Translations under genes and position numbers: made by a program
NCBI GenBank assembly: GCA_016776725.1
Contig: JADHSV010000012.1
Coordinates: 1 to 64,000, forward strand
Direction: 5' to 3'
Source of the DNA: Rhodospirillales bacterium
Lineage (GTDB): Bacteria; Pseudomonadota; Alphaproteobacteria; Rhodospirillales; Shumkoniaceae
DNA length: 64,000 nucleotides
Notes under the pieces: model-generated
The model's database searches: none
The model's input: only the letters and a program-made list of their open reading frames with translations
What the model was told of the DNA's origin: nothing
Shown: piece by piece, positions 33,171 through 64,000 of the stretch
How the letters are laid out: each line of letters begins with the position of its first letter
How positions within the stretch are numbered: position 1 is the first letter of the stretch

Positions 33171-33196
33171 GTCTTACGTATCCTCAAGCCTGGTTT

Positions 33197-33637
33197 CTAG
33201 TAGAGAAGCCCTTCGGGCAGTTGCACGTACAGCCCGTCGTGGAAAACAAAATAGGTAATGCCGGTGCCAAGGACAGCAACGATGGTCCCTGTGATGATTT
33301 GCTTGCGGTCGATCTTGCCCGCCAAAATGCAGCTGCCGACAAAAAGGAATACCGGCGTCAACAGTAGGTAACCGATGGCGTCGAGCAAAATGACATAGAC
33401 CATCGCGATGCCGACCGCGATAAAAGCCTTCGGGTTCAACCGGTCAAACGGTCCTTTATCGAGACTGCCGCGGATAATAAGAAATAACCCGCAAACGGCG
33501 AGGCAGCCCAACAGCAACCTGGGCCAGAATGCCACACCCAGCGGCACGTACATGCGCGTGGGAAAGTACAAGGTCTCTATAAATAGCGGCACGCAAATCG
33601 CAAGGATCAGAATGCCGAATTTTCGGTCTTGAGGCAT
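33197..33637 (-). CDS. tctB: Tripartite tricarboxylate transporter small membrane subunit, TctB family
   Basis: A 146-residue protein with four predicted transmembrane helices (FGILILAICVPLFIE; FWPRLLLGCLAVCGLFLI; FIAVGIAMVYVILLDAIGYL; GTIVAVLGTGITYFVF) and no soluble domain, typical of TctB. It lies between tctC and tctA. ATG at 33637 is preceded by GGAAAG. A perfect stem-loop separates it from tctC. Confidence 0.9.
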   Translation of the reverse strand: MPQDRKFGILILAICVPLFIETLYFPTRMYVPLGVAFWPRLLLGCLAVCGLFLIIRGSLDKGPFDRLNPKAFIAVGIAMVYVILLDAIGYLLLTPVFLFVGSCILAGKIDRKQIITGTIVAVLGTGITYFVFHDGLYVQLPEGLLY

Positions 33638-33659
33638 CACGCATCTTTCCGTAATGAAT

Positions 33660-33691
33660 CCGCCCGCCGATTTATGCAAACCGGCGGGCGG
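33660..33691 (-). terminator. Intercistronic stem-loop between tctC and tctB
   Basis: A perfect 10-bp inverted repeat of G and C (33660-33669 with 33682-33691) around a 12-base loop, just after the tctC stop. There is no U-tract, so it is more likely an mRNA stabiliser or partial attenuator that raises binding-protein over permease levels. Confidence 0.65.
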
Positions 33692-33708
33692 GAGGTCTCG
33701 GTGATTTA

Positions 33709-34665: not shown

Positions 34666-34695
34666 CTTTGGTCTCCCTTAGTGGTTAAATCTAGA

Positions 34696-34715
34696 ACACC
34701 CCCGGCAGGGGATGT
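34696..34715 (-). other. Small hairpin in the enolase-like/tctC intercistronic gap
   Basis: An 8-bp stem with one G-U pair and a 4-base loop in the 69-base spacer between the enolase-like gene stop and the tctC start. It may modulate the relative expression of the two genes, but its function is not certain. Confidence 0.35.
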
Positions 34716-34734
34716 CCAGCTAGTTCACGCCGTC

Positions 34735-35904
34735 CTAATTGAATTCGTACGCGTTGACCGCGTTCTTTTTGATAGAGTCCCAATCATATTCGACGCCCAG
34801 TCCGGCCCCGTCGGGAACCGGCACAAAACCATCGTTCCCGATGGCGTTCAGTTGGTCCGAGTAACCGCAGGCGAATACGGGGGGTGACAGGAAGTTCCCC
34901 ACCTGCGGGCCAATCAGACCGAGTTCGTAGAAATTCGTGTTGCGGATAGCCGACATGCAGGCCCGATGGGCGGGACCGCAGCCGTGGATCTCCACATCAA
35001 GGCCAAACGCCTCGGCCAGATGGGCGATTTTCATGCAGCCGGTAATCCCCATATCCAGTTCGGGATCGGCACGCACGAAATCGGTGGCTTCCGCCGTAAT
35101 CCATGACGCCTTTTGTTCAAGGCCCCGGACATGTTCGGAAATCAAAAGCGGGGTCTTGATGAATTGGCGCAATTTGCGGTGCGCCAGTTGCGCGGTGCCG
35201 GTGTCGCGGAACGGATCCTCGTACCAGAAGAACCCGGCTTCATCACAGGCCCGGCCCACGTAAAGCGCGTCGGCAAATGTTTTGAGATCGCCGCCCGGAT
35301 CGATCATCAGCGACATATCGCCGTTGAAACGTTTGGCCAATGCATCCACACAGGCCGCAGTTTCCTTGGGGTCGCCCTCGCTCCAGCCGCGAAACTTGAA
35401 GGCGCGATAGCCGCGTGATTCACAATCCTGCGCGAAATCGACAAGGGCTTCGGCGGAAGACAAGCCGCCGTTGCGGTCGTTCCGCATGGCGCTGACGTAG
35501 GGTCGCAGGCGATCCCGGTAGCGTCCCAGAAGACGCGAAACCGAAGTGTTCGCGCGCTTTCCGGCCATATCCCACAGGCAGATGTCAATGGGGCCGACGC
35601 CGACAAACGCCACCGCCTGCAAGGCATGTTTGAAATCGTCATAAATCCGTTCGCGGCAGTCGGGATCGCGGCCGATCAACGCGGGAGCCAGCCTGAGAAC
35701 CTGCGCTAGATGGACTTGCTTGACGCACATCATCGCGCAGTATTCGCCGCGCGATCCATCGTCCGCCGAAATTGCGATGGCGTAATTGTGCAGGCTCGCC
35801 TTGGCGCCGGGTTCATAGACACGGGCGAAACCAGAGCTGTCGAGGCCAAGGTTTTCAACCTCGTGCCTGAACTCAGTGATTTCGACCCGATCAATTCTGG
35901 CCAT
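34735..35904 (-). CDS. Enolase superfamily protein, mandelate racemase/muconate-lactonising type
   Basis: A 389-residue protein with an N-terminal capping domain and a C-terminal barrel. KFRGW occupies the KxK-like position. The Asp ligand is in LMIDPGGDL and the Glu ligand in WYEDPF. A third acidic residue is in ISEH, the Asp of the dyad in FVRADPELD, and the His in EIHGCGPAH. The site therefore looks functional, probably as a sugar-acid dehydratase or epimerase. It is the first gene of the tct operon, divergent from lysR. An upstream extension of the frame across lysR was rejected. Confidence 0.88.
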   Translation of the reverse strand: MARIDRVEITEFRHEVENLGLDSSGFARVYEPGAKASLHNYAIAISADDGSRGEYCAMMCVKQVHLAQVLRLAPALIGRDPDCRERIYDDFKHALQAVAFVGVGPIDICLWDMAGKRANTSVSRLLGRYRDRLRPYVSAMRNDRNGGLSSAEALVDFAQDCESRGYRAFKFRGWSEGDPKETAACVDALAKRFNGDMSLMIDPGGDLKTFADALYVGRACDEAGFFWYEDPFRDTGTAQLAHRKLRQFIKTPLLISEHVRGLEQKASWITAEATDFVRADPELDMGITGCMKIAHLAEAFGLDVEIHGCGPAHRACMSAIRNTNFYELGLIGPQVGNFLSPPVFACGYSDQLNAIGNDGFVPVPDGAGLGVEYDWDSIKKNAVNAYEFN

Positions 35905-35958
35905 TTTCCGACCCGCAAGTGACTCTTCCAGATTTCGCGGTGGAGAATAGCGGTTACG

Positions 35959-36010
35959 ATCTATGAAAAAAAATGAGAAATTATTGTTGGTGGATGATAT
36001 AATCTCATAG
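35959..36010. promoter_or_regulatory. Divergent operator region between lysR and the enolase/tct operon
   Basis: This gap carries the 23-base motif (35959-35981) shared with the sulfatase promoter. Its left part CTATGA (35961-35966) is mirrored by TCATAG (36005-36010), and ATGAGAAATTAT is mirrored by ATAATCTCAT. The symmetric arrangement fits a LysR binding region controlling both directions. Confidence 0.55.
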
Positions 36011-36031
36011 CTTAGAAAGGGGCCAAAAAAC

Positions 36032-36922
36032 GTGAAGCTACGCCAGCTGGAAGCCATACGCGCGGTTATTGCCACCGGGACGACCACCCACGCGGCCGAG
36101 ATGTTGCACCTGACCCAATCGGCAATCAGTCGTCTGATCACGGAACTGGAGCGCGAACTGGATTTCAAGCTTTTCGACCGCCGCCACGGGCGATTGGTGC
36201 TGACCAGCGACGGTGAGCTTTTCTTCCATGAGGCCGAGACGGTGCTGGCCGGTATGGACCGCATGAACGCCACCGCCGACGATATTCGCTCCCAACAGGC
36301 GGGATCGGTGCGGGTGGTTTCCATGCCCGCACTTTCGTATGGGCTTCTTTCACCAGCGGTCGCGGCGTTTTCCGAAGCCCATCCCAAGGTTCGGGTGTCG
36401 GTTGATGTGGTGGGGCAGCGCGATCAAATTCAGAAGCGCGTGGCCGGCGGCCAGTTTGATATCGGCCTTGTGACCCTTCCTATTGAGCAGGAAGATGTCC
36501 ATGTGGAACACCTGTTTTCGGTGAATGGCGTGTGCATCACGCCATCGGGTCATCGCCTTGCCAAAAGAGCCAAGGTCATGGCGCAGGACCTGTCGGGCGA
36601 ACCCTTCGTGTCGGTCGATGCGGGTACCAGCCTGCGCAATCGGGTCGATAATCTGTTTCGGGGATTGGGCGTGCAGCGAATTCTTTCGGTCGAAGCGCAG
36701 ACGTCCGTTATGGTTTGTCATCTTGTTGCCGACGGGGCGGGTGTCTCGCTGGTCCACCCCTTTGTCGCCACCGCCCTTCGTGGAAAGCTGGCGGCAATCC
36801 CGTTTGAACCGGCCCTACGGTTTGACTATGGCCTGGTTTTTCCGCGTTCGCGCTCGCGCCCGAAAATCACCCAAACGCTCACCGACCTACTGAAGAAACA
36901 GGCTGCGGAATCAATAAGTTAG
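36032..36922 (+). CDS. LysR family transcriptional regulator
   Basis: A 296-residue protein. The N-terminal winged helix-turn-helix (MKLRQLEAIRAVIATGTTT, HLTQSAISRLITELEREL, RRHGRLVLTSDGELFF) is followed by a ligand-binding domain. GTG start with AAGGGG upstream. It is divergent from the enolase-like/tct operon, the classic layout in which LysR controls its neighbour with a carboxylate-type co-inducer. It probably also controls the sulfatase operon through the shared motif. Confidence 0.9.
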   Translation: MKLRQLEAIRAVIATGTTTHAAEMLHLTQSAISRLITELERELDFKLFDRRHGRLVLTSDGELFFHEAETVLAGMDRMNATADDIRSQQAGSVRVVSMPALSYGLLSPAVAAFSEAHPKVRVSVDVVGQRDQIQKRVAGGQFDIGLVTLPIEQEDVHVEHLFSVNGVCITPSGHRLAKRAKVMAQDLSGEPFVSVDAGTSLRNRVDNLFRGLGVQRILSVEAQTSVMVCHLVADGAGVSLVHPFVATALRGKLAAIPFEPALRFDYGLVFPRSRSRPKITQTLTDLLKKQAAESIS

Positions 36923-50390: not shown

Positions 50391-50737
50391 ATCTCTTCCT
50401 CGATTTCCTGCTTCAGGGTTGGTAACTGCGATCCCAGTCCCACCACATCCTCGATGTCGATCTGCAGGGCGATGCCTGCACCTTCTTCCTCGTCGACGCC
50501 TGCGGCCCGACCGATTGTTTCCAGGATATGGCGGGCCAGTTGCTCGGGCACCAGGAACAGCACCAAATCCCGCTGGATCGAAAGGTCGAGCCCGAGGAAG
50601 GTTTTCTGCGGCGCAAGTCCTTCTCCCCGGGCGCCGGTAATGACCGTCGCCCCTGTGGCTCCCGCGGCGCGGGCTGCCTCGATCACCGGTTCGGTCTTCT
50701 CGTCGGCGACCATGGCAATGATCAGCTTCATTCTCAT
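50387..50737 (-). CDS. PII-like (GlnB-superfamily) regulatory protein
   Basis: A 116-residue protein with the PII-like start MKLIIAMVADEKTEPVIEAAR, then GATVITGARG. It lacks the uridylylated Tyr of canonical T-loops and ends in an acidic EIEEEI. It belongs to the PII-like proteins found beside transporters, and probably binds a nucleotide and gates or tethers the adjacent DUF1538 proteins. Both ends overlap the flanking genes by ATGA-type coupling, which argues for tight stoichiometry. Confidence 0.75.
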   Translation of the reverse strand: MRMKLIIAMVADEKTEPVIEAARAAGATGATVITGARGEGLAPQKTFLGLDLSIQRDLVLFLVPEQLARHILETIGRAAGVDEEEGAGIALQIDIEDVVGLGSQLPTLKQEIEEEI

Positions 50738-51519
50738 GGTATATCCCTCCCTGCGGCGCTCCGCTTGGTTCTCTTGATCCGTTCGGTGATCAGCGCATAG
50801 GCGAGCACCGACATTATGGGAAACAGGCTGGCAAAGGCAATCAGGCCAAAGCCGTCAATCAACGGGCTGCGGCCCGGAATGGTCGAAGCCAGACCCAGGC
50901 CAAGGGCGGCGACCACCGGCACGGTCACGGTAGACGTCGTGACGCCGCCTGAATCGTAGGCCAGCGGAATGATGGTACGGCTCGACAGCATTGTCTGTGC
51001 AATAACGACGGCGTAGCCGACCATGATGTAAACCGGCAGCGGCGTACCGGTGACAATGCGCCAGGCACCCAGGGCCACGCCGACCGCCACGCCAATGGCA
51101 ACGGCAATGCGCAGGCCCGTAGCTTTCAGCGAACCGCCCGATATTTTTTCGGCCTTAAGCGCCACCGCAATCAGGCTCGGTTCGGCGATGGTGGTGGCGA
51201 AGCCGATCGTCGCGGCGAACACGTAAACCCACACGTAATCCATTGGCACGGGCGGCACACCTTCCACGGCTCCGATGAACGCAGGCGAGGTCAATTGTGA
51301 CGCCATGGTTTCGCCGATGGGAAACAGCGCCATTTCCAACCCGACCAGAAACAGGGTCAACCCGGCCAGCACATAAGCGAAACCGAAAAGTACCTTTTTC
51401 AAATTGGGCAGCTTCTTGCGGATGACCAGGAATTGGAAGCCGAACAAAATGGCTGCGATGGGCAGCACATCGATCACTGTTGATATTCCGGTGCGGACGA
51501 TGTGAACAATCAGTTCCAT
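50734..51519 (-). CDS. DUF1538 membrane protein (second paralogue)
   Basis: A 261-residue protein with about seven predicted transmembrane helices. Conserved DUF1538 features are [35 protein letters not shown] and [18 protein letters not shown]. Its ATG follows the TAG of the upstream DUF1538 gene with no gap, so they are coupled. No function is established for DUF1538. Paralogous halves suggest a heterodimeric transporter, perhaps with inverted topology (inference). Confidence 0.8.
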   Translation of the reverse strand: MELIVHIVRTGISTVIDVLPIAAILFGFQFLVIRKKLPNLKKVLFGFAYVLAGLTLFLVGLEMALFPIGETMASQLTSPAFIGAVEGVPPVPMDYVWVYVFAATIGFATTIAEPSLIAVALKAEKISGGSLKATGLRIAVAIGVAVGVALGAWRIVTGTPLPVYIMVGYAVVIAQTMLSSRTIIPLAYDSGGVTTSTVTVPVVAALGLGLASTIPGRSPLIDGFGLIAFASLFPIMSVLAYALITERIKRTKRSAAGRDIP

Positions 51520-52260
51520 CTAGACCACCATGCCGAAGATCAAGACGAAGATCATCGGCGTCAACGAGGCGAATGCGATCAGCCCGAAACCGTCGATCAT
51601 TGGATTGCGGCCACGGATGGTGCTGGCCAGCCCAACGCCCAGGGCCGTCACCAGTGGCACGGTGATGGTGGATGTCGTCACCCCGCCGGAATCATAGGCG
51701 ATGCCGATGATCTCGGGCGGCGCCAGGGGGGTCAAGGCGATGACCATGATATAACCGCCGATGATCAGGTAATGCACCGGCCAGCCCTTGAGGATGCGAA
51801 ACACGCCGATTGTCAGGGCCAAGCCGACCGAACCGGCCACCGTGTAGCGCAGGCTTGACGCGTAAGAGGCGCGAGCTTCTTCGGTGTCGGCAATAAACCC
51901 GGCAGCTCCGGCCACCTTGGCGGCTTCGCCGCCCACCGCGATCAGGGCTGGTTCGGCCACGGTCGTCCCGAACCCCAAGGCAAAGGAAAAGGCCAACAGC
52001 CAGAATAGACTGCCTTTGCGCGCAAAGGATTCTGCCATGGACTCGCCAATGGGGAACAATCCCATTTCCAGTCCGCGTACGAACAACGCGAGGCCGAGCA
52101 CGACAAAGGCAGTTCCGGTGAGAATCGCGCCGAGATTGGGGAAAGGCTGTTGCAGCACCACCACCTGAAAGAAGGCGATGACCAGAGCGATCGGAGCGAG
52201 ATCCCGCGCCGCCTCAGCAATCAGGCGACCCAGGCCGCCGAGAATCCGTCCGCTCGCCAT
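51520..52260 (-). CDS. DUF1538 membrane protein (first paralogue)
   Basis: A 246-residue protein from ATG at 52260. It has about seven transmembrane helices and the same conserved motifs as the next gene: [53 protein letters not shown]. It is the first gene of the four-gene operon DUF1538-DUF1538-PII-like-CBS. The 253-base gap upstream to the enolase-like gene should contain the operon promoter; no clear motif was seen. Confidence 0.78.
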
Positions 52261-52513
52261 GTACCCCCGGCTGCCTCCGGAACGCCGATGCCCGTCTAAA
52301 GCATTCGGCAAACCGGCTCGCTATACGTGAACCGACATTTCCCAGTTAATCTTCAATTCTGAGCCAATCGTATGGGAACGCCGACATCGATGAAAGGTAT
52401 TTTTCTCTTCGGACCTGCCAACGCGGTGTATGCGCATTCCAAACAAAATCCCGCCAACCAACCGGTAGACGGGACTTTGTGTTTCTCGGTCCTGAGACGC
52501 GTGGACGCTGAGA

Positions 52514-53668
52514 CTAAACCTTGGTGATGCCCCCCGCTTCGTTGGTCTGCATACCAGCGGCCATCAGTTTTTCGGGCGACGTGACACGGCAGTCGGCCAG
52601 GGCATCGTAATTCGGCGTGAAGCCGAGGCCCGGCGCGTCGGGAATTTTCACCATATCGTTTTCGGGCGCAGGTGCGCCGGTGAAGAATTTTTGCCCGGCC
52701 TGCCACATGCCCCAGTGGAATTCCACCAGCCAGCCGTTCATGACGCCGGCCATGGTATGCATGTTAAAGATGGGCCAGCCGCCGCCGTTGGCGATGGGCA
52801 GGTTATAGGTCTGGGCCAGATGGGCGGCCTTCAGGGTTTCGGTGAAGCCGCCGTTGTAACAGCAGTTGGGCTGCAAAACGTCGATCGCCTGGTTTTCCAC
52901 CAGTTCGCGAATGCGCCAGCGATGCCCCTCCATCTGCCCCGCCGCAATCGGGATGTTGGTGCCGCGCCGCAAATCGGCCAGGGCCCGGGCGTCGTTCTGA
53001 TAAAGCGGTTCCTCGAACCATGTCAGGTTACAATCCTCGACCGCCCGACACAGCATCTTGGCGTCGATGGGCGAGAAACGGTAATTGGCGTCGATCATGA
53101 TGTCGACGTCGGGGCCGACGGCATCGCGCACCGCCTGGATGCGCCGGGCGTCCTCGCGCCAGCCGCCCTTGTCGTTGGCAACCACCATTTTCAGGCGCGT
53201 ATTCCCCTCGGCCACAAATTTCTTTGCGTATTCGCATAACTGGTCGATGTCGAAGAAGGGATAACCGAACGTGATGTAGGTGGAGGCCCAGTTCCGGTGG
53301 CCGCCCATCAATTGGGCCACGGTGCGCCCGGTGGCCTTGCCGTGAATATCCCAGCACGCGATGTCGATGGCCGACAGAGCATTGGACACGACGCCCGTGT
53401 AGGCGCGCGGATTGACCTTCCACCAGACCGCCTTGTGAATGGCTTCGGTGTCGCGCGGGTCCATTCCCTTGATGGTGGGAAAGATGTCATGCTCGATGGC
53501 CGCAATCTGCGCCCAGGGAAGGAACGCGCCGGTTACGCCATGCCCCGTTAGCCCGTCGTCCGTTTCGACCTCGCAAAAGGTCAGAACGCGCTGTTCCATG
53601 GGCTTGTCGATCATCGGCAGATAAACCGGGAACTGATGAATGCTCGCCGTGATTTTTGCAATCTTCAT
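52514..53668 (-). CDS. Enolase superfamily protein with changed active-site residues
   Basis: A 384-residue protein with the mandelate-racemase subgroup layout: KMVVANDKG, MIDANYRFS (Asp ligand), WFEEPLYQ (Glu ligand). However the third metal position reads AAGQMEG (Gln where Glu is expected), the Asp of the His-Asp dyad appears as Asn (LQPNCCYNGG), and the His position appears as Asn (PIANGGG). Activity may therefore be altered or lost. It is coupled by ATGA to the MmgE/PrpD gene and ends the cassette C operon. Confidence 0.82.
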   Translation of the reverse strand: MKIAKITASIHQFPVYLPMIDKPMEQRVLTFCEVETDDGLTGHGVTGAFLPWAQIAAIEHDIFPTIKGMDPRDTEAIHKAVWWKVNPRAYTGVVSNALSAIDIACWDIHGKATGRTVAQLMGGHRNWASTYITFGYPFFDIDQLCEYAKKFVAEGNTRLKMVVANDKGGWREDARRIQAVRDAVGPDVDIMIDANYRFSPIDAKMLCRAVEDCNLTWFEEPLYQNDARALADLRRGTNIPIAAGQMEGHRWRIRELVENQAIDVLQPNCCYNGGFTETLKAAHLAQTYNLPIANGGGWPIFNMHTMAGVMNGWLVEFHWGMWQAGQKFFTGAPAPENDMVKIPDAPGLGFTPNYDALADCRVTSPEKLMAAGMQTNEAGGITKV

Positions 53669-55098
53669 AAACAATTCTCCGTCAGTTCGCGGACGTTTTG
53701 TAAGCTCTCCAACGTGCGAACGGTTTCAACGATTTTGGCGGTTTTCGCCTGTGGCCACTGCGCGAATTCGGCGCAGCCGCGGAATTTTTCCGCTGCCTCG
53801 TCATAGGTCATCGGATTTGCCGGACTTCCCTTCCCAAAATCGGCGCGGCCTGATATTTCGCGGCCGTCTTTTAAGGTAATGTCGATGATGGTCGTCATCT
53901 TGTCATAACCGGCAGCCTCAGCCTCCGGATGCACGCCGAAGTCGACGCGCGCAATCATTTCCTGAACGTCGGCGCGATTGACCACTTCGTCGGCAAACTC
54001 GCCAAGACCCGCCTTGCCTTCGATCAGAAGGATCGCCATGCAAAACTCCATGCTGAACTTGGCCTGAAGCTCGTCGGTGGGTTGATGATGGATCAGCGCA
54101 TTGGGCATGTTGTGGTTGGTGCCGACCGCAACGCTCTCCACCTGATCGGCGATTATCCCGTGTTCGCGGATGAGGCGCAGCATTTCGGTCATACCGGGAT
54201 GGGTGAGCGACCCCGACGGGTGCGGCTTGATGGAAACGCCCGGCGAAATAAAGGTCCACGGATCGCCGAGGCGGCCCGAAATGGCCTCCAGATCGTAGCC
54301 GCCGCCGTGGGCCTGGAAAAAGCCACGCGGCGCTTCCAGAATGCCGTCTGCGGCGGTCCATCCCAATTCTGCAAATTCAGCCGCGACAATGCCGCTTTCG
54401 GAGGCCCGGCCCGCATGAAACGGCTTGGTCATGGAACCGAAGTTTTCACGCAGACCAGCCGACTGGCTGGCTGCGATGGCAAGCGCGCGAAGGATCTGGT
54501 CCTGATCAAAACGGCCCAGCTTGGCGGCTGCCGCAACCGCGCCCAGAGGGCCGCAGGTGGCAGTGGAGTGGAACCCATGTTGGTAGTGGCGCGGCGAGAT
54601 CGCTTCGGACACCTTGCATTCAACTTCGACGCCCACGTGGTAGGCGACCATTAGATCGATGCCCGACAGGCCCGACACTTCGGCCTTCGCAAGTGCGGCG
54701 GGCAGAACTGGCGCGGTTGGGTGGGTGAGCAAGCCGTAGACCCGGTCCTTGCCCACGGCAAGTTGCGTATCGTCAAAATCGTCGGCGTGAATGGCGACAC
54801 CGTTGGCAAACGCGGCAAAGCGTGCCGGAACCTTCATGCCGGTTCCGATCACCCGGGCCTCGCCGGACATGTTCAAAGATGAAAGATGGGAACAAACCAA
54901 CTCGCCGCTTTTCGCCACCGAGCCAGACAGCGCTAGCCCCAATCCATCGAGGATGGACTTCTTGCCCAGGTCAACTAATTCGGGGGAAAGATCGCTCCAG
55001 CTAGTATCGGAGATAAATTGGGCGACCTCTTTGGTCAGTCCGCGACCCTTGTCGGGGTCGATCTCAGGTGTGAATTTCGTAATCGATTTATTGTCCAC
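53665..55098 (-). CDS. MmgE/PrpD family protein
   Basis: About 477 residues from GTG at 55098, which has GAGG 8 bases upstream; longer frames run into the pdxA-like gene. It has the MmgE/PrpD pattern (AVGKDRVYGLLTHPTAPVLPAALA, HYQHGFHSTATCGPLGAVAAA, HAGRASESGIVAAEFAELGW). Family members include 2-methylcitrate dehydratase and cis-aconitate decarboxylase-like enzymes. No prp genes are present, so substrate specificity is open; an imported carboxylate is likely. Confidence 0.85.
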   Translation of the reverse strand: MDNKSITKFTPEIDPDKGRGLTKEVAQFISDTSWSDLSPELVDLGKKSILDGLGLALSGSVAKSGELVCSHLSSLNMSGEARVIGTGMKVPARFAAFANGVAIHADDFDDTQLAVGKDRVYGLLTHPTAPVLPAALAKAEVSGLSGIDLMVAYHVGVEVECKVSEAISPRHYQHGFHSTATCGPLGAVAAAAKLGRFDQDQILRALAIAASQSAGLRENFGSMTKPFHAGRASESGIVAAEFAELGWTAADGILEAPRGFFQAHGGGYDLEAISGRLGDPWTFISPGVSIKPHPSGSLTHPGMTEMLRLIREHGIIADQVESVAVGTNHNMPNALIHHQPTDELQAKFSMEFCMAILLIEGKAGLGEFADEVVNRADVQEMIARVDFGVHPEAEAAGYDKMTTIIDITLKDGREISGRADFGKGSPANPMTYDEAAEKFRGCAEFAQWPQAKTAKIVETVRTLESLQNVRELTENCL

Positions 55099-55120
55099 GC
55101 AGTTTGCCTCAAGTGTTGTT

Positions 55121-56086
55121 TCAACGACTCTTCGCGCGTTTGATTTCTGCCATTTTGCACACCAGGAAAAACGCCTGGCGCAACCCTTCTGCGTTAGCGA
55201 TGCCCTTGCCGACAATGTCGAAGGCGGTGCCGCTGGCGGGTGTCGTGATGGGAACCGGGACGCCGCCGGTCACGGTGACGCCGCGTTTGAACCCCATCAG
55301 TTTCATGGCGATTTGCCCCTGATCGTGGTACATAGTGACGACCGCATCGAAATTCCCGTCTTTTGCTTTCAAAAAAATCGTATCGGCTGCGAACGGCCCG
55401 TTGGCGTCAATGCCTTCGGCTTTTGCGGCTTCGATGGTCGGCGCGATGATGTCAATTTCCTCGCGGCCGAACATGCCGCCGTCACCCGCATGCGGGTTAA
55501 GGGCGGCGACCGCAATGCGGGGCTTCTCGAACCCGGCGGAACCCAACGTGTTGTGGGCCAGACGGATGGCGCGCAGGATGCGTTCGGGCGTAACCAGGGC
55601 GCATACCTCGGATAATGGAATATGCGACGTGGTCCGCGTTGTCCACAGGCCGTCCAGCACGTTGTGCTCGCAAAACGGCCCATCGAAATCCAGTTCGTGG
55701 GCGAAGAAAATGTGTTCGTCGGCGACCGGACAACCGCCCAGCTTCAGGGCGTACTTGTTGAGTGGTGCAAAGCAAAAACCGTCGATCTCGCCCTTTTTAG
55801 CCATGTCCAATGCCACGCTCAACGACTTCAGGCACGACCGTCCGCCTGCCGCCGTGGCCTCGCCCGGCGTGACTTCTTCAACCGTTATGCACGGAACGTC
55901 CAGAAACGGAACGTCGGTCGGAACGGGTATGCCAGCCACCTTTTCAGCCATGCGCAATATCCGCGTATCGCCGATAACGAGGATGTCGGCGCGTTCCCGC
56001 ACATCCTCGCCCGCCAAAAGTTTGACCGCCATTTCAGGCCCGACGCCGTTGGGGTCGCCGAGCAGCACGCCGATTTTGGGTTTCAT
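55121..56086 (-). CDS. PdxA-like dehydrogenase (4-hydroxythreonine-4-phosphate dehydrogenase family)
   Basis: A 321-residue protein with the PdxA metal-site histidines in EHIFFAHELDF, ALNPHAGDGGMFG and TMYHDQGQIAMK, and the N-terminal LGDPNGVGPE. Being outside a pyridoxine locus and inside a catabolic operon with transporters, it is probably a PdxA2-type enzyme acting on a four-carbon phosphorylated acid, not in vitamin B6 synthesis. ATG at 56086 lies 4 bases after the TctA stop. Confidence 0.85.
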   Translation of the reverse strand: MKPKIGVLLGDPNGVGPEMAVKLLAGEDVRERADILVIGDTRILRMAEKVAGIPVPTDVPFLDVPCITVEEVTPGEATAAGGRSCLKSLSVALDMAKKGEIDGFCFAPLNKYALKLGGCPVADEHIFFAHELDFDGPFCEHNVLDGLWTTRTTSHIPLSEVCALVTPERILRAIRLAHNTLGSAGFEKPRIAVAALNPHAGDGGMFGREEIDIIAPTIEAAKAEGIDANGPFAADTIFLKAKDGNFDAVVTMYHDQGQIAMKLMGFKRGVTVTGGVPVPITTPASGTAFDIVGKGIANAEGLRQAFFLVCKMAEIKRAKSR

Positions 56087-56090
56087 CTGA

Positions 56091-57575
56091 CTAGTTTCCG
56101 CCAACCATCTTCTTCATTTGTTTGAACAAGAAGGGTCCGAACAAACCAAGGAAGGTAAGGATGAAGAACGACACCGCGATGGGCCGACCAAAGAACATGG
56201 TCCAGTCATGCTCGAAAAGCAGAAGCGACTGTTTCAAAGTGTTCTCCACCAGATCGCCCAGAATGATCCCCATGATGATCGGGGCCGGGGCAAAACCATA
56301 ACGGCGCAGCACAAAACCAAGCAGGCCAAACACCAGCATGATGCCCACATCGACCATGGCCTGTTCCAACGAATACGCGCCGACGACCGCCAAAACGAAA
56401 ACAGCGGGCCAAAGGAACGTGCGCGGGATCAGGGTGATGCGGGCGAACAGTTTTGCGCCCACCAGGCCGATACCCAGGAACAGAATATTGGCGACCAACA
56501 TGGCTCCGAAAATTCCGTACAAAAGGTCCGGCTGTTCCTGGAACAGGTACGGTCCGGGGCGCAGGCCATGGACCAAAAGCGCACCCAGAATAACGGCGGT
56601 TGTGCCACTGCCGGGAATGCCCAGGGCCAGGGTCGGAATCATCGCCCCGCCGGTGGCCGCGTTGTTGGCCGCTTCGGGTCCGGCGATGCCTTCAATGGCA
56701 CCGTTGCCGAATTCGTCTTTGTTCTTCGACCAGCGCCGCGCTTCGTTGTAGCCGATCATGGCTGCGACGGTGCCGCCTTCGGCAGGCAGGATGCCAATAA
56801 AGGTGCCGATGCCGCACGAACGCACGATGGTCTTCCAAACCAGCTTGAAATCTTCCTTGGTCGGAAGCTTGACCGCAAGGGCCGCGACGCGGTGATAAAC
56901 CACGTCCAGACTTGCCGCCTGGGCCAGCAACTCGGCGCCGCCAAAAATACCGATCATCACCGGGATAAAGTGAATGCCTTCGGTCATTTCAGGATAGCCA
57001 AAGGTAAACCGCTCGACCCCGGTCGTGAAATCAATTCCGACGGTGGCAACCAGAACGCCAAAGGTGCCGCCGATCAGATTCTTGACCGCCGAGCCTTTGG
57101 TAATTGAGGCCAGCATGGAAAGGCCAAAAAGAGCCAGAGCGAAGTATTCGGGCGGCCCGAAGCTGTAGGCCATGCGCGCCAGCATCGGGGCGGCGACCAA
57201 CAAAACGATAACACTGAAAATGCCGCCGATGGTGCTGCTGACCGTGGCCATGCCCAAGGCGCGACCGGCTTCGCCGCGCAACGCCATGGGGTAGCCGTCG
57301 ATGGCCGTGGCTGCGGCTGGAGGTGCACCGGGTGCGTTAATTAATATGGCTGTGATTGATCCGCCGAAGGTCCCCGCGCAATAAAGGGCTGAAAGCAGGG
57401 CAATGGCCGGAACCGGCGGCATCATGACGGTAAATGGCAGCAGCAATGCGGTTGCCATAGTCGAGGTCAGCCCCGGTAATGCGCCGACGAGGACGCCGCC
57501 GACGGTGCCGCAAAGCACAATGAACAGCAAATACGGGTCCGTCATAATCGAAATGGCGTGAAGAAGTCCGTCCAT
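56091..57575 (-). CDS. tctA: Tripartite tricarboxylate transporter permease, TctA family
   Basis: A 494-residue membrane protein with the TctA repeats GALPGLTSTMATALLLPFTV, GTFGGSITAILINAPGAPPA and NAATGGAMIPTLALGIPGSG. It is the second complete tct system in this window and clearly a separate paralogue of the one at 31650. Downstream genes pdxA-like, mmgE/prpD and enolase-like form the same operon, so its substrate is likely a carboxylate they metabolise. Confidence 0.95.
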   Translation of the reverse strand: MDGLLHAISIMTDPYLLFIVLCGTVGGVLVGALPGLTSTMATALLLPFTVMMPPVPAIALLSALYCAGTFGGSITAILINAPGAPPAAATAIDGYPMALRGEAGRALGMATVSSTIGGIFSVIVLLVAAPMLARMAYSFGPPEYFALALFGLSMLASITKGSAVKNLIGGTFGVLVATVGIDFTTGVERFTFGYPEMTEGIHFIPVMIGIFGGAELLAQAASLDVVYHRVAALAVKLPTKEDFKLVWKTIVRSCGIGTFIGILPAEGGTVAAMIGYNEARRWSKNKDEFGNGAIEGIAGPEAANNAATGGAMIPTLALGIPGSGTTAVILGALLVHGLRPGPYLFQEQPDLLYGIFGAMLVANILFLGIGLVGAKLFARITLIPRTFLWPAVFVLAVVGAYSLEQAMVDVGIMLVFGLLGFVLRRYGFAPAPIIMGIILGDLVENTLKQSLLLFEHDWTMFFGRPIAVSFFILTFLGLFGPFLFKQMKKMVGGN

Positions 57576-57588
57576 CTATCAATCAACC

Positions 57589-58116
57589 TCAGCGGAAAAA
57601 TTCTGTAAAGAAACCCAGCGGGAAATTTACTTCCATGACCCGCGAGAAAAGGAAATACACCAGCACCGGATAGATCGCGGCGAAGATGGCGATGATCTTG
57701 AACCTGCGTTCACCCCACAAAATCGGAAGGGCGATGCAGAACAACATCATCGCGGCAATGATCCCAACCCAATTAACAATGCTGACGAATACGATCAGCA
57801 ATACCGCCGATAAAAACACGACCTTGGGTAAGGGTTTGCGCTTCTTCGCTTCCTGACCCCAGGCCTGAAACATCATCATCACGGCAAAGGCCGAAATCAG
57901 GAACAGCAGAAGCCGTGGGAACTGGGTGGGCGGAACGCCCTGCGCCATCGCCGAAGGCACCTCGTCGAACAGGGTCGTCAGGTAGAAAACGACGGCGCTG
58001 AACAAAAGGACGGCGACGCCCATTGGGAGGTCGGTGTGAATGGAGAAGGGGCGCGACCCTTGATCGGGCCGCGCCTTGTTCCCGTCACCATTTTGCGTGG
58101 TTTTTGTATCAGTCAT
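57589..58116 (-). CDS. tctB: TctB family small membrane subunit
   Basis: A 175-residue protein with four predicted transmembrane helices and a hydrophilic N-terminus. ATG at 58116 chosen because the longer frame runs into the tctC gene. It lies between tctC and tctA, matching the canonical gene order. Confidence 0.88.
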   Translation of the reverse strand: MTDTKTTQNGDGNKARPDQGSRPFSIHTDLPMGVAVLLFSAVVFYLTTLFDEVPSAMAQGVPPTQFPRLLLFLISAFAVMMMFQAWGQEAKKRKPLPKVVFLSAVLLIVFVSIVNWVGIIAAMMLFCIALPILWGERRFKIIAIFAAIYPVLVYFLFSRVMEVNFPLGFFTEFFR

Positions 58117-58138
58117 TGAACGCAAAATCGCTTTTTCT

Positions 58139-59116
58139 TTACTTGATGAACCCAAGTTCCTTGAGGCTCTTTTCGCCGTCGGCGTAGAGCTGCTTGATCT
58201 GAGCCGTCCAGTCGGCGGAACCGACGATGCTGCCAGCATCGAGGCCGACGGTTTCCAGATAGCCAAGGTAGTAGCTGTGCTTCATGGCTTTGACGATCTT
58301 GGTTTCCAGCGTTTTCAACTCAGCGTCCCCAGTGCCTTTCAGGGTCACGAAGCCGCGAACCGTCGAGAACGTCGCGTCGATGCCCATCTCGACCGAAGTC
58401 GGCACGTCCGGCAACGGTCCCATGCGCTTCTTGGCAAGCACGATGAGCGGTTGGATTTCGCCGGCCTTGATCTGGGATTCGGCCTCCGAAAGGTTCAAAA
58501 CGCCGATATCAACGTCGCCGCCGATCAGGTTGGTGACGATGTGTCCGCCGCCTTCATAGGGGATGTAGTTGATTTTGATGCCCGCTTTGTTGGCGAAGGT
58601 GGCGACCGTAACCTGATCGATACCGCCAACATGCGTTCCGGCGACTTTCAGTTTGCGTTTACCCGCTTCGGCCAGCATGGCTTTGGCGTCCTTGAACTTG
58701 CCGGCCTTGGCCATCAGAAGCTGCGGATCGTCGGTGGCGCGCGCGATGCCGACCAAATCATCGATCTTAAGCACGGACTTGCCCATGGCGATGGTGAACA
58801 GATGGCTCGGCGTGATCGTCATGATCGTGTGACCGTCGCGATCCTTGCCGTTGATGTAGTTCATGGCCACGGCACCACCGCCGCCACGCTTACTGACCAC
58901 CGTCATGTCAGCTTTCAGTTCGCGGCGTGCGCGCATCATCATCATGCGGGTGGTAACGTCGGTGCCGCCGCCGGCTCCGGCGTGGGTCACGACTTCAATG
59001 GTCTTGGACGGGAATTTATCCGCCGCTTGAGCCGCACCGGCCGCGAGACCAAGTGCGAGAGTCGCCGTTGCACACGCGAGGAACGCACGGCGCGGTGTGA
59101 AAATGCTGTCCGTCAT
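58139..59116 (-). CDS. tctC: TctC/Bug family substrate-binding protein
   Basis: A 325-residue protein with a Tat-like signal peptide (TPRRAFLACATATLALGLAAG) and the Bug signature FPSKTIEVVTHAGAGGGTD, GGGGAVAMNYINGKDRDGHTI, and LPDVPTSVEMGID. It is the ligand receptor of the second Tct system. It heads the cassette C operon, opposite the 2-hydroxyacid dehydrogenase gene. Confidence 0.92.
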   Translation of the reverse strand: MTDSIFTPRRAFLACATATLALGLAAGAAQAADKFPSKTIEVVTHAGAGGGTDVTTRMMMMRARRELKADMTVVSKRGGGGAVAMNYINGKDRDGHTIMTITPSHLFTIAMGKSVLKIDDLVGIARATDDPQLLMAKAGKFKDAKAMLAEAGKRKLKVAGTHVGGIDQVTVATFANKAGIKINYIPYEGGGHIVTNLIGGDVDIGVLNLSEAESQIKAGEIQPLIVLAKKRMGPLPDVPTSVEMGIDATFSTVRGFVTLKGTGDAELKTLETKIVKAMKHSYYLGYLETVGLDAGSIVGSADWTAQIKQLYADGEKSLKELGFIK

Positions 59117-59468
59117 ATCTGAATGTCTCCCTATGTCCTCTGAACGCGGTTAAGCTCGCGCTTCGGCAAGGCGAATGCAGCGCTTCTCGCGAGCGACCTG
59201 GGTTGGGTGGCACCTTGGAGTTAAATTGCGTTGTCTTCACACCGGATGTCCGCACGTCGAAAGCCGAATTCCGGCGATTTCATGCAAACTTGCTTCCCTG
59301 TCGCATCCCGGCGCGTGTTATTCTTCGTTCGGATGCTCACCTCCCAATATTGATGGTGCAAGCCACGCGGAAATGTGTCAACATAATTTTGTCGACACTA
59401 GACAAATTTATATGTGCGTACGCCGAACATAGCGGCGGCCAAAAAATTATTTTGGGGCGGAATACTCT
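59117..59468. promoter_or_regulatory. 352-base divergent regulatory region between tctC and the hydroxyacid dehydrogenase gene
   Basis: The longest gene-free stretch in the window. It holds TGTCAACA (59376-59383), TGTCGACA (59390-59397), and a TTGTC-N7-GACAA dyad (59389-59405) extended by AATTT arms to 59409. The same boxes occur upstream of gntR and the ferredoxin operon, so it is probably the main operator of the adjacent GntR regulator. Nothing else recognisable was seen. Confidence 0.6.
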
Positions 59469-60422
59469 ATGAAAGTTTTCGTGCTGGATCCGATCAATGC
59501 CAAAGGTGTCGAACTTTTGCATAAAGAGGCCGAGGTTGTCCTGTGGGACGATCCGGCGGCCGCGGGGTGGCATGGCGAGGCCGATGGCGTGATCGTGCGT
59601 GGCACGACGCCGTTGAAGGAAGCCGACTTCGCCGCCGCAGCGCGGCTAAAGGCGGTCAGCAAACACGGGACCGGGGTAGACCGCATTGATCTGGACGCCG
59701 CGCGGCGCAACGGGGTGCGTGTCATGAATACGCCCGGCCTTAACGCCGAGGCCGTAGCCGAAATGACCATGACGCTGGCGCTGGCGGCAGCCCGCAGGGT
59801 GCCGATGATTGACCGTATGCTGCGCTCCGGCCAACCCGTGGCGCGCGAGGATTTCGACGGCAGCCGCGCTGGCGGGGCACAAGGGTTCTGGGGAAAAACC
59901 GTGGGCGTCATCGGCATGGGGGCCATCGGCCGCCGCGTCGCCGCCAAGTGGTCGGCCGCGTTCGGGATGACCGTCCTTTGGTTCGACCCGTTTGTTCCCG
60001 AAGCCGCCGGGGGCGACCTGAAAGGCGAAAGGATCACCGATCTTGATCAGATGCTGGGGCGGGTCGATCTGCTGAGCATCCATGCGCCCCTGACCAAACA
60101 GACCAAGGGAATGATCGGGGGCCCGGAAATTGCCCTGATGAAGAAATCGGCGGTGCTGGTCAGTGTCGCGCGTGGCGGAATTGTTGACGAGGATGCACTT
60201 TATGACGCACTTTCCGGCGGTTCGCTTTTCGGGGCGGCGCTGGATGTTTTCGAGCAAGAACCGCCGGCTGCTGATCATCCGCTGTTCAGTATTCCAACGT
60301 TCGTTGGAACACCGCACATTGCGGCTGGAACGGTCGATTCGCGGGAACATACGGCAATTGCCGTGGCCCGGCAGCTTCTCGATGTTCTGGAGGGGGGCAA
60401 GGGCAGTAACATTCTTGTGTAG
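59469..60422 (+). CDS. D-2-hydroxyacid dehydrogenase family protein (phosphoglycerate dehydrogenase-like)
   Basis: A 317-residue protein with the NAD-binding motif GKTVGVIGMGAIGRRVA and catalytic residues in the standard places: Arg in VARGGIVDE, Glu in LDVFEQEPP and His in GTPHIAAGT. No ACT/ASB domain is present, so it is more likely a catabolic 2-hydroxyacid dehydrogenase than serine biosynthesis. It lies divergent from tctC and upstream of gntR. Confidence 0.9.
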   Translation: MKVFVLDPINAKGVELLHKEAEVVLWDDPAAAGWHGEADGVIVRGTTPLKEADFAAAARLKAVSKHGTGVDRIDLDAARRNGVRVMNTPGLNAEAVAEMTMTLALAAARRVPMIDRMLRSGQPVAREDFDGSRAGGAQGFWGKTVGVIGMGAIGRRVAAKWSAAFGMTVLWFDPFVPEAAGGDLKGERITDLDQMLGRVDLLSIHAPLTKQTKGMIGGPEIALMKKSAVLVSVARGGIVDEDALYDALSGGSLFGAALDVFEQEPPAADHPLFSIPTFVGTPHIAAGTVDSREHTAIAVARQLLDVLEGGKGSNILV

Positions 60423-60431
60423 ATACACGAC

Positions 60432-60439
60432 TGTTGACA
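60432..60439 (-). promoter_or_regulatory. TGTCAACA box upstream of gntR
   Basis: TGTTGACA on the top strand, an exact reverse-strand copy of the boxes at 59376 and 61253. It lies 34 bases upstream of the gntR start, in a 50-base gap, suggesting autoregulation. Confidence 0.5.
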
Positions 60440-60472
60440 CTGGGAGGGGGAGACACCTAAATCCTTCGAGCC

Positions 60473-61183
60473 ATGAATAAAACAACGACCGCACCCAGAA
60501 GCAAAACCGCCCAGACGCTGGAAATCCTGCGCACCCAATCGCTGACAACGATTGTGCTGGAGGAACTGGAGCGGATGATCCTGTCCGGCGAACTAAAGCC
60601 GGGCGAACGTATCAACGAGAAAGCCCTCGCCGAGCAGCAATCGGTCAGCCGCGGACCGATTCGCGAGGCCTGCCGCCGTCTTGAACAGGCGGGGTTGGTG
60701 GAAATCGTCGTCAATCGCGGTGTCTTCGTGCGCAAATTGAAGGCGGGCGATGCGGCGGATATCTGTGACATCAAGGCGGCGTTATCGGCGCTCATCGGCC
60801 GCGCCCTGGCGCTGAGCATTACGGACGAGCAACTGGAGACCCTGAGGGGCATGGTTGCGCGCATGGAAGATTTGGCCGCGCGGGGCGATGTCGCCACCTA
60901 TTATCCCATCAACGTCGAATTCCACAACGTCATGCTGGGTTTCACCGGAAACGACCGACTTATCGAAATGTGCACCGGGGTTGATAAGGAGCTTTACCTC
61001 TTTAAGCGCAAAAGCATGGACGTGGGGCCGGGGCTCGACCGCTCGGTCGCCGAACACCGGGTCGTCATCGAAGCTCTGGAAAGTCGTGACGAACACGCCG
61101 CCGGCGAAATCATGTGGCAACACGCCATTACCGGAAAATTGCGTCTTCTGGGGGCTCTTCCGGAAACGGAAAACGAAAATTAG
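60473..61183 (+). CDS. GntR family regulator, FCD subfamily
   Basis: A 236-residue protein. Winged helix-turn-helix (LERMILSGELKPGERINEKALAE, VSRGPIREACRRLEQAGLVEI) and an FCD effector domain with His/Asp metal-type residues (NVEFHNVM, AEHRVVIEAL). It probably senses a carboxylate and controls the divergent tct operon, the dehydrogenase and perhaps the ferredoxin operon through TGTC(A/G)ACA boxes. Confidence 0.9.
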   Translation: MNKTTTAPRSKTAQTLEILRTQSLTTIVLEELERMILSGELKPGERINEKALAEQQSVSRGPIREACRRLEQAGLVEIVVNRGVFVRKLKAGDAADICDIKAALSALIGRALALSITDEQLETLRGMVARMEDLAARGDVATYYPINVEFHNVMLGFTGNDRLIEMCTGVDKELYLFKRKSMDVGPGLDRSVAEHRVVIEALESRDEHAAGEIMWQHAITGKLRLLGALPETENEN

Positions 61184-61240
61184 TCAAAATCCGGGCGTGA
61201 GCTGACGTGTCTCGTCCGCCCAATTAAGAACCCCTTTCAA

Positions 61241-61279
61241 CAAGCAATAAATTGTCAACAACCGACAATTTATTGCTTG
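61241..61279. promoter_or_regulatory. Perfect 16-bp inverted repeat upstream of the ferredoxin operon
   Basis: Arms 61241-61256 and 61264-61279 match exactly across a 7-base spacer. The core is TTGTC-N7-GACAA, the same spacing as the dyad at 59389-59405, and it contains TGTCAACA (61253-61260). This supports an operator role; a terminator of gntR is possible but there is no T-run. The core TGTCA-N5-CGACA also resembles, with one base less spacing, the CO sensor CooA box recalled from Rhodospirillum rubrum. Confidence 0.6.
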
Positions 61280-61330
61280 AATTCCCCCCTTTTCCTCCAT
61301 TACCGTAACGCCTCGTTCAAATAACGATAA

Positions 61331-61358
61331 CGGGCGGAAAATCTGATTAATCCGCCCG
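61331..61358 (+). other. Hairpin in the ferredoxin operon leader
   Basis: An 8-bp GC-rich stem (61331-61338 with 61351-61358) with a 12-base loop, ending 6 bases before the ribosome-binding site (GGGAGG, 61365-61370). It may affect translation of the ferredoxin gene; no known regulatory family was recognised. Confidence 0.4.
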
Positions 61359-61378
61359 CGCCGTGGGAGGAATTCTGC

Positions 61379-61915
61379 ATGGATGTCATCGCGGTTCACG
61401 TGGACCGTTGTGTGGGTTGCAAGACCTGTGAACTGGCCTGCGCGGTGGAGCGCGGAAGCGAAGGAAAAACGCTTTTAAGCGCCGTTCGCGAGGCTCCGCA
61501 ACCGCAAGCCCGAGTGCGCGTGGAAGGCGCGGGCGGCGTTTCGTTCGCCATTCAGTGCCGCCATTGCGCGGATGCGCCGTGTCTGGACGCCTGTCTGACC
61601 GGAGCCCTGGCGCGCGACGCCGAAAGTGGGCTGGTGCGCGTCAACGATGACCGCTGCATCGGGTGCTGGACCTGCGTCATGTTTTGTCCCTACGGCGTTA
61701 TATTCCCGTGGCCCGAACGCAAGCTGGCGCTTAAGTGTGACCGCTGCATGCACATGGAATCTTCGGCCTGCGTCGACTCGTGTCCGACCCAGGCGCTGGA
61801 AATCGTCAACGTCGAAAAGCTGGCCGACGCGTATGCCGAAAAACGGCGTAGCGCGGCCATGGCGGCATCCGGGATTGGGATAGACGGTGCCGTTCATCTC
61901 GATCTTGGGAAATAA
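61379..61915 (+). CDS. CooF-like ferredoxin with four 4Fe-4S clusters
   Basis: A 178-residue protein with 16 cysteines in four groups: C11/14/17/21, C60/63/68/72, C93/96/99/103 and C120/123/131/135. The arrangement resembles HycB/CooF/DmsB-type electron-transfer subunits, which shuttle electrons from a catalytic protein to partners such as CODH or a flavin oxidoreductase. It starts with GGGAGG upstream, and is followed after 27 bases by the CODH-like gene. No membrane segment is seen, so it is probably cytoplasmic. Confidence 0.88.
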   Translation: MDVIAVHVDRCVGCKTCELACAVERGSEGKTLLSAVREAPQPQARVRVEGAGGVSFAIQCRHCADAPCLDACLTGALARDAESGLVRVNDDRCIGCWTCVMFCPYGVIFPWPERKLALKCDRCMHMESSACVDSCPTQALEIVNVEKLADAYAEKRRSAAMAASGIGIDGAVHLDLGK

Positions 61916-61942
61916 ACAAACCTCTCCGGGGAAACGTCAGTT

Positions 61943-63190
61943 ATGGAAAGCATTCACTTAAAATCAGTCGATCCCGTCAGCCAGGATCTTTTGCGTATCG
62001 CGGCGCGGCGGGGGCTGGAATTGTCGTGGGAACGCTACGAAGCCCAGCAGCCGCAGGACGGATTTGTTCGCAGCGGCCTTGGCTGCGCCTTCGGGTGCCT
62101 GCACGGCCCGTGTCGTATCGACCCGTTCGGACGCGGGGCAACCAATGGAATTTGCGGAATCGACCGCGACCAAATGGTCGCTGCGTCGCTGCTGCGCCTG
62201 TGCTTGAACGGAGCGCTGGAGGCCGGGGTATCGGGGGATTGCGTTGTTCAGGCCGCCGTCATGTTAAGCCGCCCGCAAGGCTCGGTTGATGAATTGGTTC
62301 GCGCCGCCGCGGACCTCGGTGTGGCGGCTTTCAAGGCCAGCGGCGAGGCCGAAGGTGTTTCAGGCGGGGTTAAGGCCGGATACGGCGTTCTTGCCGCCGA
62401 CGGTCCGATCATCGGCGTTTGCGGCAATCCGGACGAAGCCACTGTGTCGAAGCTGGTATCGGCGAAGGGGCGGGGCCGCGTGGTCTCGCTGGGCGACTGG
62501 ATTTCCGTGGGCGGCGAGCTTCTGCCCTTCGCGTGTTCCTCGGGCGAGGGCGAACTGGCCATCGCATCCGGGTGCATTAGCCAAGTGGTTTGCGGGGCGG
62601 ATGCCGATCCCGCCATCATAGCCGTTTGTGAACAGGCAGGCGTACCTGTCGGCGTCGAGGCGGTTGATGCGGTAGCGGGGGCTTCCGACTTTACTCCGCA
62701 GCCTGAACAGTTTGGGGAGGGAGCCGTGTGCGCGCCCGGTGATATCGCGAAGGGTCCGCTGTGCCTAATCGGCGGGTCCGATATGCCGCAACAGTCCATG
62801 GGCTGGCTGGCAAGCGAATTGCCGGGCGCGCTCGCGGCCGCAGGCCAAAACGTGGCGGCCTGGGGCGATGCGGCGCTGTGGGTCGTCAAGGGGGGCACGG
62901 CGGGCGTGCAGACGCTCGACCCCGTTCGCGGACCATGGGACGCGTGTGCGACGTCCGGCTCGAACCTCAAGGGAATTTGCTTTACCGGTTTGTCCGGATG
63001 CCGTGATCTGGCCGTGGCGCTGGGCGCTGCCGCGTTGGGCGCGCGGGTGTGCGTGGCTACGCCGTTGCCGGTTTGGGGCAGCGAAGCCGTTTGTGATGCA
63101 ATTGATGGGATCGTCGACCGAAATGGTGGCGAGTTCGCGCACTTCGATCATCCGGCAAGCGCCGATGAAATCCTGGCCTGGTTTGGATAA
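61943..63190 (+). CDS. Shortened CODH-like (CooS-type) protein
   Basis: A 415-residue protein, compared with about 640 for CooS. The N-terminal region has C48-x3-C52-x4-C57-x13-C71 (GCAFGCLHGPCRIDPFG...GICG), matching the CooS B-cluster pattern apart from one extra residue between the first two cysteines. The two D-cluster cysteines are missing. Possible C-cluster equivalents are C160 (IIGVCG), C217 (VVCGADAD) and C353 (GLSGCRD). The His and two Cys ligands of canonical enzymes seem absent. So CO oxidation is not assured. It is coupled to the downstream reductase by TAATG. Confidence 0.7.
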   Translation: MESIHLKSVDPVSQDLLRIAARRGLELSWERYEAQQPQDGFVRSGLGCAFGCLHGPCRIDPFGRGATNGICGIDRDQMVAASLLRLCLNGALEAGVSGDCVVQAAVMLSRPQGSVDELVRAAADLGVAAFKASGEAEGVSGGVKAGYGVLAADGPIIGVCGNPDEATVSKLVSAKGRGRVVSLGDWISVGGELLPFACSSGEGELAIASGCISQVVCGADADPAIIAVCEQAGVPVGVEAVDAVAGASDFTPQPEQFGEGAVCAPGDIAKGPLCLIGGSDMPQQSMGWLASELPGALAAAGQNVAAWGDAALWVVKGGTAGVQTLDPVRGPWDACATSGSNLKGICFTGLSGCRDLAVALGAAALGARVCVATPLPVWGSEAVCDAIDGIVDRNGGEFAHFDHPASADEILAWFG

Positions 63191-64000
63191 TGGGCAGGGC
63201 CGACTACGATCTGGTTGTTGTGGGTGGCGGTGCCGCCGGGCTTAACGCGGCCTTTTCGTGCAGGCAGCGGTTCCCGGACAAACGGGTTCTTCTGATCGAT
63301 CGTGAATCCGAGGTCGGCTACTACCGCACCCTTCTGCCCATGTTCATGGCGGGCAATCTGAATGAGGACAAGCTGTTTTTCTGGAAGTCCGGCGATGACG
63401 AAAATCTGGACACCCGTCTGGGTGTTCAGGTGCGCAGTCTGGATCGCGCCGCTAAATGCCTGACCCTGGACACCGGCGAAACCATTGGCTACGCGCGGCT
63501 GGTTCTGGCCTGCGGCGGTTATCCTATCGTGCCGCCGGTGTTCGAGCGCGCGGTAACCCCCGAAGGGGTATTTCCCGTGCGCGGCCTTTCGGTGGCCCGC
63601 GAAATCAAGGATTGGTTGCCCCAACGTCGCGATATCGTTGTGCTGGGCGGCGGTCTGGTGGGCTCCAAGACGTCCGTATTCCTGCGCCTTGCGGGTTTCA
63701 ACGTGACCCTGGTCGAGAAGGAAGCTCATATTCTTCCGACGGTTCTAAGCGCCGATACCGCGCGGCCCCTGCAACGCCATCTGGAAAACATGGGAGTGCA
63801 GGTTAAAACCGAAACCACCATCGATCAGTTCAAGGCCGACGCGGATGGCGCGGTATCGTCGGTGCATCTGGCGACGGGTGAATGGCTGCCCTGCGGGACG
63901 TTTCTGGTGGGCATCGGTTCGACGCCGGATCTTGCGTTTTTGGATGGCACGGGTCTCGTGGAAGACGGCGAGCTGGTCGTTTCGCCGACCCTGCAAACGC
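63190..64000 (+). CDS. FAD-dependent pyridine nucleotide-disulfide oxidoreductase, 3'-truncated by window
   Basis: About 270 residues visible. FAD-binding motif YDLVVVGGGAAGLNA at the N-terminus, second NAD(P)-binding motif DIVVLGGGLVGSKTSVFLR, and FLVGIGSTPDLAFLD. No redox-active Cys pair or NADH-oxidase-type Cys is seen, so it looks like a ferredoxin/NAD(P) oxidoreductase or related enzyme. The ATG overlaps the CODH-like gene stop (TAATG). The combination ferredoxin, CODH-like, flavin oxidoreductase recalls known CODH-ferredoxin-FNOR modules. The end of the gene and any genes after it lie outside. Confidence 0.82.
   Translation, partial: MGRADYDLVVVGGGAAGLNAAFSCRQRFPDKRVLLIDRESEVGYYRTLLPMFMAGNLNEDKLFFWKSGDDENLDTRLGVQVRSLDRAAKCLTLDTGETIGYARLVLACGGYPIVPPVFERAVTPEGVFPVRGLSVAREIKDWLPQRRDIVVLGGGLVGSKTSVFLRLAGFNVTLVEKEAHILPTVLSADTARPLQRHLENMGVQVKTETTIDQFKADADGAVSSVHLATGEWLPCGTFLVGIGSTPDLAFLDGTGLVEDGELVVSPTLQT

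Follow-up and report, generated by a model that had tools for sequence, protein, structure and literature searches.

A CooS-type carbon monoxide dehydrogenase homologue with a B-cluster motif and no conserved C-cluster ligand, encoded between CooF-like and FNOR genes in Rhodospirillales

The Ni-CODH/FNOR unit, with its gene order CooF, CO dehydrogenase (CODH) and FNOR (PMC6344411), is one of several described systems with which the locus reported here can be compared. In CooS-V of Carboxydothermus, which belongs to clade D, one C-cluster ligand is changed from cysteine to glutamate and a hybrid cluster is kept (PMC9311411), and the clade A groups A-4 and A-6, Cdh-type CODHs encoded in ACS gene clusters, are without the D-cluster and have an incomplete C-cluster motif (PMC6344411). 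The mini-CooS of Thermosinus carboxydivorans (WP_007288589) is small and divergent, and its metal-cluster motif is reported as complete in the words of Techtmann 2012 quoted in PMC8776680. HCP, of the same superfamily, is also among the nearest described forms (PMC10502027). The protein described here shares with the Ni-CODH/FNOR unit the gene order and a CooS-type N-terminus with a B-cluster, but it has neither D-cluster, C-cluster nor CooC, is about 220 residues shorter, and is fixed to a carboxylic-acid catabolic operon. With CooS-V it has in common a CODH scaffold without CO chemistry, yet it conserves none of the six C-cluster ligands; it resembles A-4 and A-6 in its missing D-cluster and incomplete C-cluster, but is CooS-type and lies in an unrelated operon. 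Like mini-CooS it is small and divergent, but the lack of a complete metal-cluster motif sets it apart as far as the quoted description goes, and unlike HCP it has a CODH-type B motif. The open-access literature that we searched yielded no CooS-type protein described as lacking every C-cluster ligand. Published CODH surveys that require intact motifs filter such sequences out, so the range of the superfamily is probably under-counted.

The window, i.e., the whole stretch of 64,000 nucleotides that was analysed (contig JADHSV010000012.1, positions 1 to 64,000, assembly GCA_016776725.1), comes from a Rhodospirillales bacterium of the family Shumkoniaceae and carries the following genes and sites.

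52514-53674, minus strand: mandelate racemase / enolase-superfamily dehydratase
53665-55215, minus strand: MmgE/PrpD-family protein
55121-56104, minus strand: PdxA-like dehydrogenase, the second PdxA of the locus
56091-57575, minus strand: TctA transporter
57589-58266, minus strand: small membrane subunit, TctB by position only, start uncertain
58139-59116, minus strand: TctC-type solute-binding protein
59469-60422, plus strand: D-2-hydroxyacid dehydrogenase
60473-61183, plus strand: GntR/FCD regulator
61379-61915, plus strand: CooF-like ferredoxin that carries four 4-Cys motifs and shares 47.6% identity with the CooF of a canonical CODH/FNOR locus
61943-63190, plus strand: CODH-like protein (415 aa) in which the D- and C-cluster ligands are missing (open reading frame, profile and structure-sequence matches)
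62057-62059, plus strand: D39, aligned to the first D-cluster Cys of CooS, invariant in five copies
62081-62083, plus strand: G47, aligned to the second D-cluster Cys of CooS, G or S in the family
62084-62155, plus strand: B-cluster motif C48-x3-C52-x4-C57-x13-C71, all four Cys invariant in five copies
62420-62428, plus strand: C160-G-N162, with C160 invariant and N162 (N, R or Q in the family) replacing the C-cluster ligand His in the profile alignment
62534-62536, plus strand: C198, invariant in the five-copy alignment
62627-62629, plus strand: C229, invariant in the five-copy alignment
62771-62782, plus strand: GGSD (277-280), aligned to AGCN, the ligand Cys being replaced by S279 (S, T or V in the family)
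62861-62875, plus strand: WGDAA (307-311), aligned to TGCAA, the ligand Cys being replaced by the invariant D309
63190-64000, plus strand: FNOR-type FAD/NAD(P) oxidoreductase of 430 aa (L011, 3191-4483), running past the window

Among solved structures, the best match of the CODH-like protein, of which residues 40-373 had been flagged in the preliminary description, is the CooS of Rhodospirillum rubrum (phmmer with the single sequence, E 9.9e-21; 9.2e-23 with the family profile). CooS-type homology is recognised over the first ~90 residues (E between 1e-20 and 1e-23), and the domain libraries recognise only this N-terminus: the match to TIGR01702 covers residues 9-92 (E 1.5e-17) and at 63 bits stays far below the equivalog cut-off of 478, while that to Pfam Prismane, the HCP/CODH superfamily, covers residues 50-99 with 27 bits, equal to the gathering score of 27. 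On these matches, which lie beyond chance, the product is a CooS-type CODH homologue. A profile alignment with diverse CODHs spans residues 7-338. The C-terminal half on its own gives a weak E-value of 0.002, so that its homology rests on column shuffles (score of 32.6 for the C-terminal part alone, whereas none of 300 shuffles exceeded 23.7) and on collinearity with CODH residues 443-614. Judged by these comparisons, the rest of the protein is what is left of the middle and C-terminal domains of a CODH, collinear, shortened and highly diverged, in whose C-terminal half exact residue registers are tentative. A pairwise MAFFT alignment of the whole protein to CooS ran into a false register after residue 110, aligning CooS piecewise brought no improvement and the profile alignment was used instead, and a BLAST alignment of residues 95-254 to the helical domain of the R. 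rubrum enzyme was judged a weak alternative register. AlphaFold models had a pLDDT of about 37 for the protein alone and 36 for the window protein together with one canonical CODH, and support no claim.

Membership in the HCP family was considered and rejected: hhalign gave a probability of 0.3% between our family and HCPs from the same bacterial family, versus 97% (E 2e-11) between canonical CODH and HCP, with an HCP profile built from two sequences, and the protein has neither the HCP-type N-terminal Cys motif nor the hybrid-cluster ligands. Of the five genomes in the bacterial family, four encode a true HCP elsewhere (L060-L063, about 535 bits to Prismane); none was found in the incomplete window genome.

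Five copies from four genomes and three genera of this one family, all closely related sequences, form the comparison set. A second copy in the same assembly is 85% identical. Among the four other genomes in the family, three have a single copy (L013, L014, L015) that shares 54-56% identity with the window protein. Elsewhere in the order, of which 317 genomes were covered in all, a profile search returned only N-terminal matches in long frames, which we read as CODHs, and one weak unrelated match (G670). No further copy appeared in a single-sequence search of a class-wide draw of 385 genomes, in a phylum-wide draw of 397 genomes the only matches were two to the N-terminus, in frames of 712 and 730 aa, and a scan of genome contigs returned nothing beyond a canonical CODH and a chance match. 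The viral contigs and plasmids searched held no homologues.

The B-cluster motif stands exactly as it had been proposed in the preliminary description, with four cysteines invariant in all five copies and the one extra residue sitting between the first two of them. The D-cluster cysteines are indeed absent, D39 and G/S47 occupying both positions, and the profile alignment bears out GGSD and WGDAA as the counterparts of AGCN and TGCAA. The three cysteines that had been suggested as remaining C-cluster ligands do not hold up: C217 varies (C, C, L, C, W in the five copies), as does C353 (C, C, S, A, S), and C160 is invariant, yet aligns two positions ahead of the His ligand in GHNP. For three other ligand segments the register is tentative: the Cys of DYQC falls on residue 220 (D, G or V in the family), the CCTG segment has no Cys in the CODH-like protein (LG184), and the GSC segment is either deleted or corresponds to C346, itself G or A in two copies. 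None of the set of one His and five Cys is thus conserved in the five copies. The helical-domain His motif of CooS, which holds the acid-base His, is replaced as well, and the catalytic Lys aligns with D355. The overall picture of a protein with only a B-cluster, no D-cluster and a destroyed C-cluster is therefore sustained, whereas the retention of C-cluster ligands is not. An incomplete C-cluster, as had been envisaged, is unlikely because no ligand is retained in the family; the different cluster raised along with it is possible but not favoured, since only 3 of the 14 non-B cysteines are invariant (C160, C198 and C229) as against 173 of all 415 residues (42%). By this count, the invariance of these three cysteines is no more than expected.

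The ATG of the FNOR gene overlaps the stop codon of the CODH-like gene. Further downstream (L011, 4486-5877) lie a 241-aa protein with an N-terminal 4Fe-4S (ferredoxin) domain and an orphan 218-aa protein, which has no relative in Pfam, NCBIfam or PDB, carries the invariant motifs HSLHR, TTMCGH and KPC-x-CG, and is found in the same 4 of 150 genomes of the order as the CODH-like protein; the plasmids searched had no homologues of either. The two are apparently an uncharacterised metalloenzyme pair, which may resemble 6-hydroxynicotinate reductase. All five loci have the same six-gene order (CooF, CODH-like, FNOR, 241-aa, 218-aa, PdxA-like) and are surrounded by GntR regulators, TctABC, a second PdxA, MmgE/PrpD and an enolase-superfamily dehydratase, and in four of them a D-2-hydroxyacid dehydrogenase lies near the six genes. 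In its own assembly the cluster at 52514-63190 of the window is repeated (L012; G000:C36, 36000-53905), with identities of 85% for the CODH-like protein, 94% for CooF and 95% for the 241-aa protein, which reflects either a duplication or two binned strains. The order CooF-CODH-FNOR also occurs in canonical CODH loci of two other genomes, in one of them followed by a CooC-like ATPase. For the nickel chaperone CooC itself, the relatives yielded only P-loop matches of 22-26 bits and the incomplete genome of the window none; no other CooS-type CODH was found in the genomes of the family. Elsewhere in the window are two adjacent DUF1538 membrane proteins (50734-52311) and a second TctA-type transporter set beside another enolase-superfamily protein (31650-36387).

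The likeliest reading, to which we give about an even chance, is that the protein is a CODH-derived subunit which has lost CO chemistry and serves in electron transfer or docking through its B-cluster, between FNOR, CooF and a substrate oxidoreductase for the catabolism of a carboxylic acid. The ancestor was a CooS-type Ni-CODH of a CooF/CODH/FNOR unit. The alignments with canonical CODHs, with tentative residue registers in the C-terminal half, show that this lineage has given up every C-cluster ligand along with the D-cluster, as well as the acid-base residues and a large part of the helical domain. From the lost ligands and established CODH chemistry it follows that the protein cannot be a CO dehydrogenase and is predicted to carry out no CO oxidation. 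The remaining B-cluster-bearing subunit would relay electrons among, and dock to, CooF, the FNOR flavoprotein, which would handle NAD(P)H, and a substrate oxidoreductase, which the ferredoxin-fused 241-aa protein and the 218-aa protein would form; the operon would catabolise a carboxylic acid brought in by the tricarboxylate-type TctABC transporter. We infer this relay or docking role from the gene neighbourhood. A diverged 239-/211-aa pair (about 40%; L041, 7736-9105, on G001:C15) adjoins a GntR gene and TctCBA genes at a locus that has none of the trio CooF, CODH-like protein and FNOR. This suggests that the 241/218 pair acts on the substrate, with the trio as the module that handles its electrons. 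The same locus also speaks against the relay, as the trio is not obligatory for the pair, and the invariance of C160, C198, C229 and D309 would also allow a different metal site.

That the gene could instead be a decaying pseudogene or an artefact of metagenome assembly is exceedingly improbable. The assembly to which the window belongs has a completeness of 74%, and two binned strains might account for its two copies of the cluster, which would fit an artefact; against this, the frame is intact in five copies from four genomes, three of them 97-99% complete, the gene order is the same across copies, and dN/dS is well below 1. Both readings are refuted by the intact reading frames conserved across copies. 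Between the two copies of the window genome dN/dS is 0.144 over the whole gene (0.07 for residues 1-95, 0.26 for 96-145, 0.26 for 146-265 and 0.09 for 266-415), and it is 0.09 between L014 and L015. The N-terminal domain thus has the lowest value (0.07), the C-terminal domain being nearly as constrained (0.09). By these ratios purifying selection maintains the gene, also over the stretch from which the active site has gone, and together with the conserved operon this shows that the protein is still a working one.

A non-redox scaffold or regulatory subunit, whose CODH fold holds CooF and FNOR together or which senses redox state via the B-cluster, would agree with the loss of all catalytic ligands, the conservation of CooF and FNOR on either side and the N-terminal domain being the most constrained part (dN/dS 0.07); the C-terminal value of 0.09 is tighter than a bare docking platform suggests, though still compatible with one, and we hold this function to be rather unlikely. 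Unlikely, too, and a shade more so, is a metal site that has moved within the scaffold, such as a 3Fe or 4Fe cluster on C160, C198, C229 and possibly D309, and that would make the protein itself catalytic, with a small molecule or an organic compound as its substrate. These four residues do not vary among the three genera, purifying selection acts on the middle and C-terminal domains, and in CooS-V a single ligand change already yields an Fe/S/O cluster (PMC9311411), but an invariance of 3 in 14 non-B cysteines, versus 42% of all residues, and a set of five closely related sequences count against it. Still more doubtful is the further step to a class of enzymes derived from CODH whose C-cluster site would be rebuilt as a different, nickel-free centre from the same four residues and act on an organic acid with CooF and FNOR.

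If the protein is indeed a CODH-derived electron-transfer or docking subunit, it suggests that the CODH scaffold may outlive its CO-converting centre and be kept within an electron-transfer operon, extending the series from CODH to CooS-V and HCP by a form without any active-site ligand. CO metabolism would be predicted in error if such a gene were annotated automatically as 'CO dehydrogenase'.

Elsewhere in the order, one genome carries a CooS of the R. rubrum type (L024/L045, matching chain 1jqk), which points to Rhodospirillales as the likeliest host order. In two further CODHs (L028 in G541 and L029 in G535) DLQD replaces the ligand segment DYQC, which apparently leaves them without one C-cluster cysteine.
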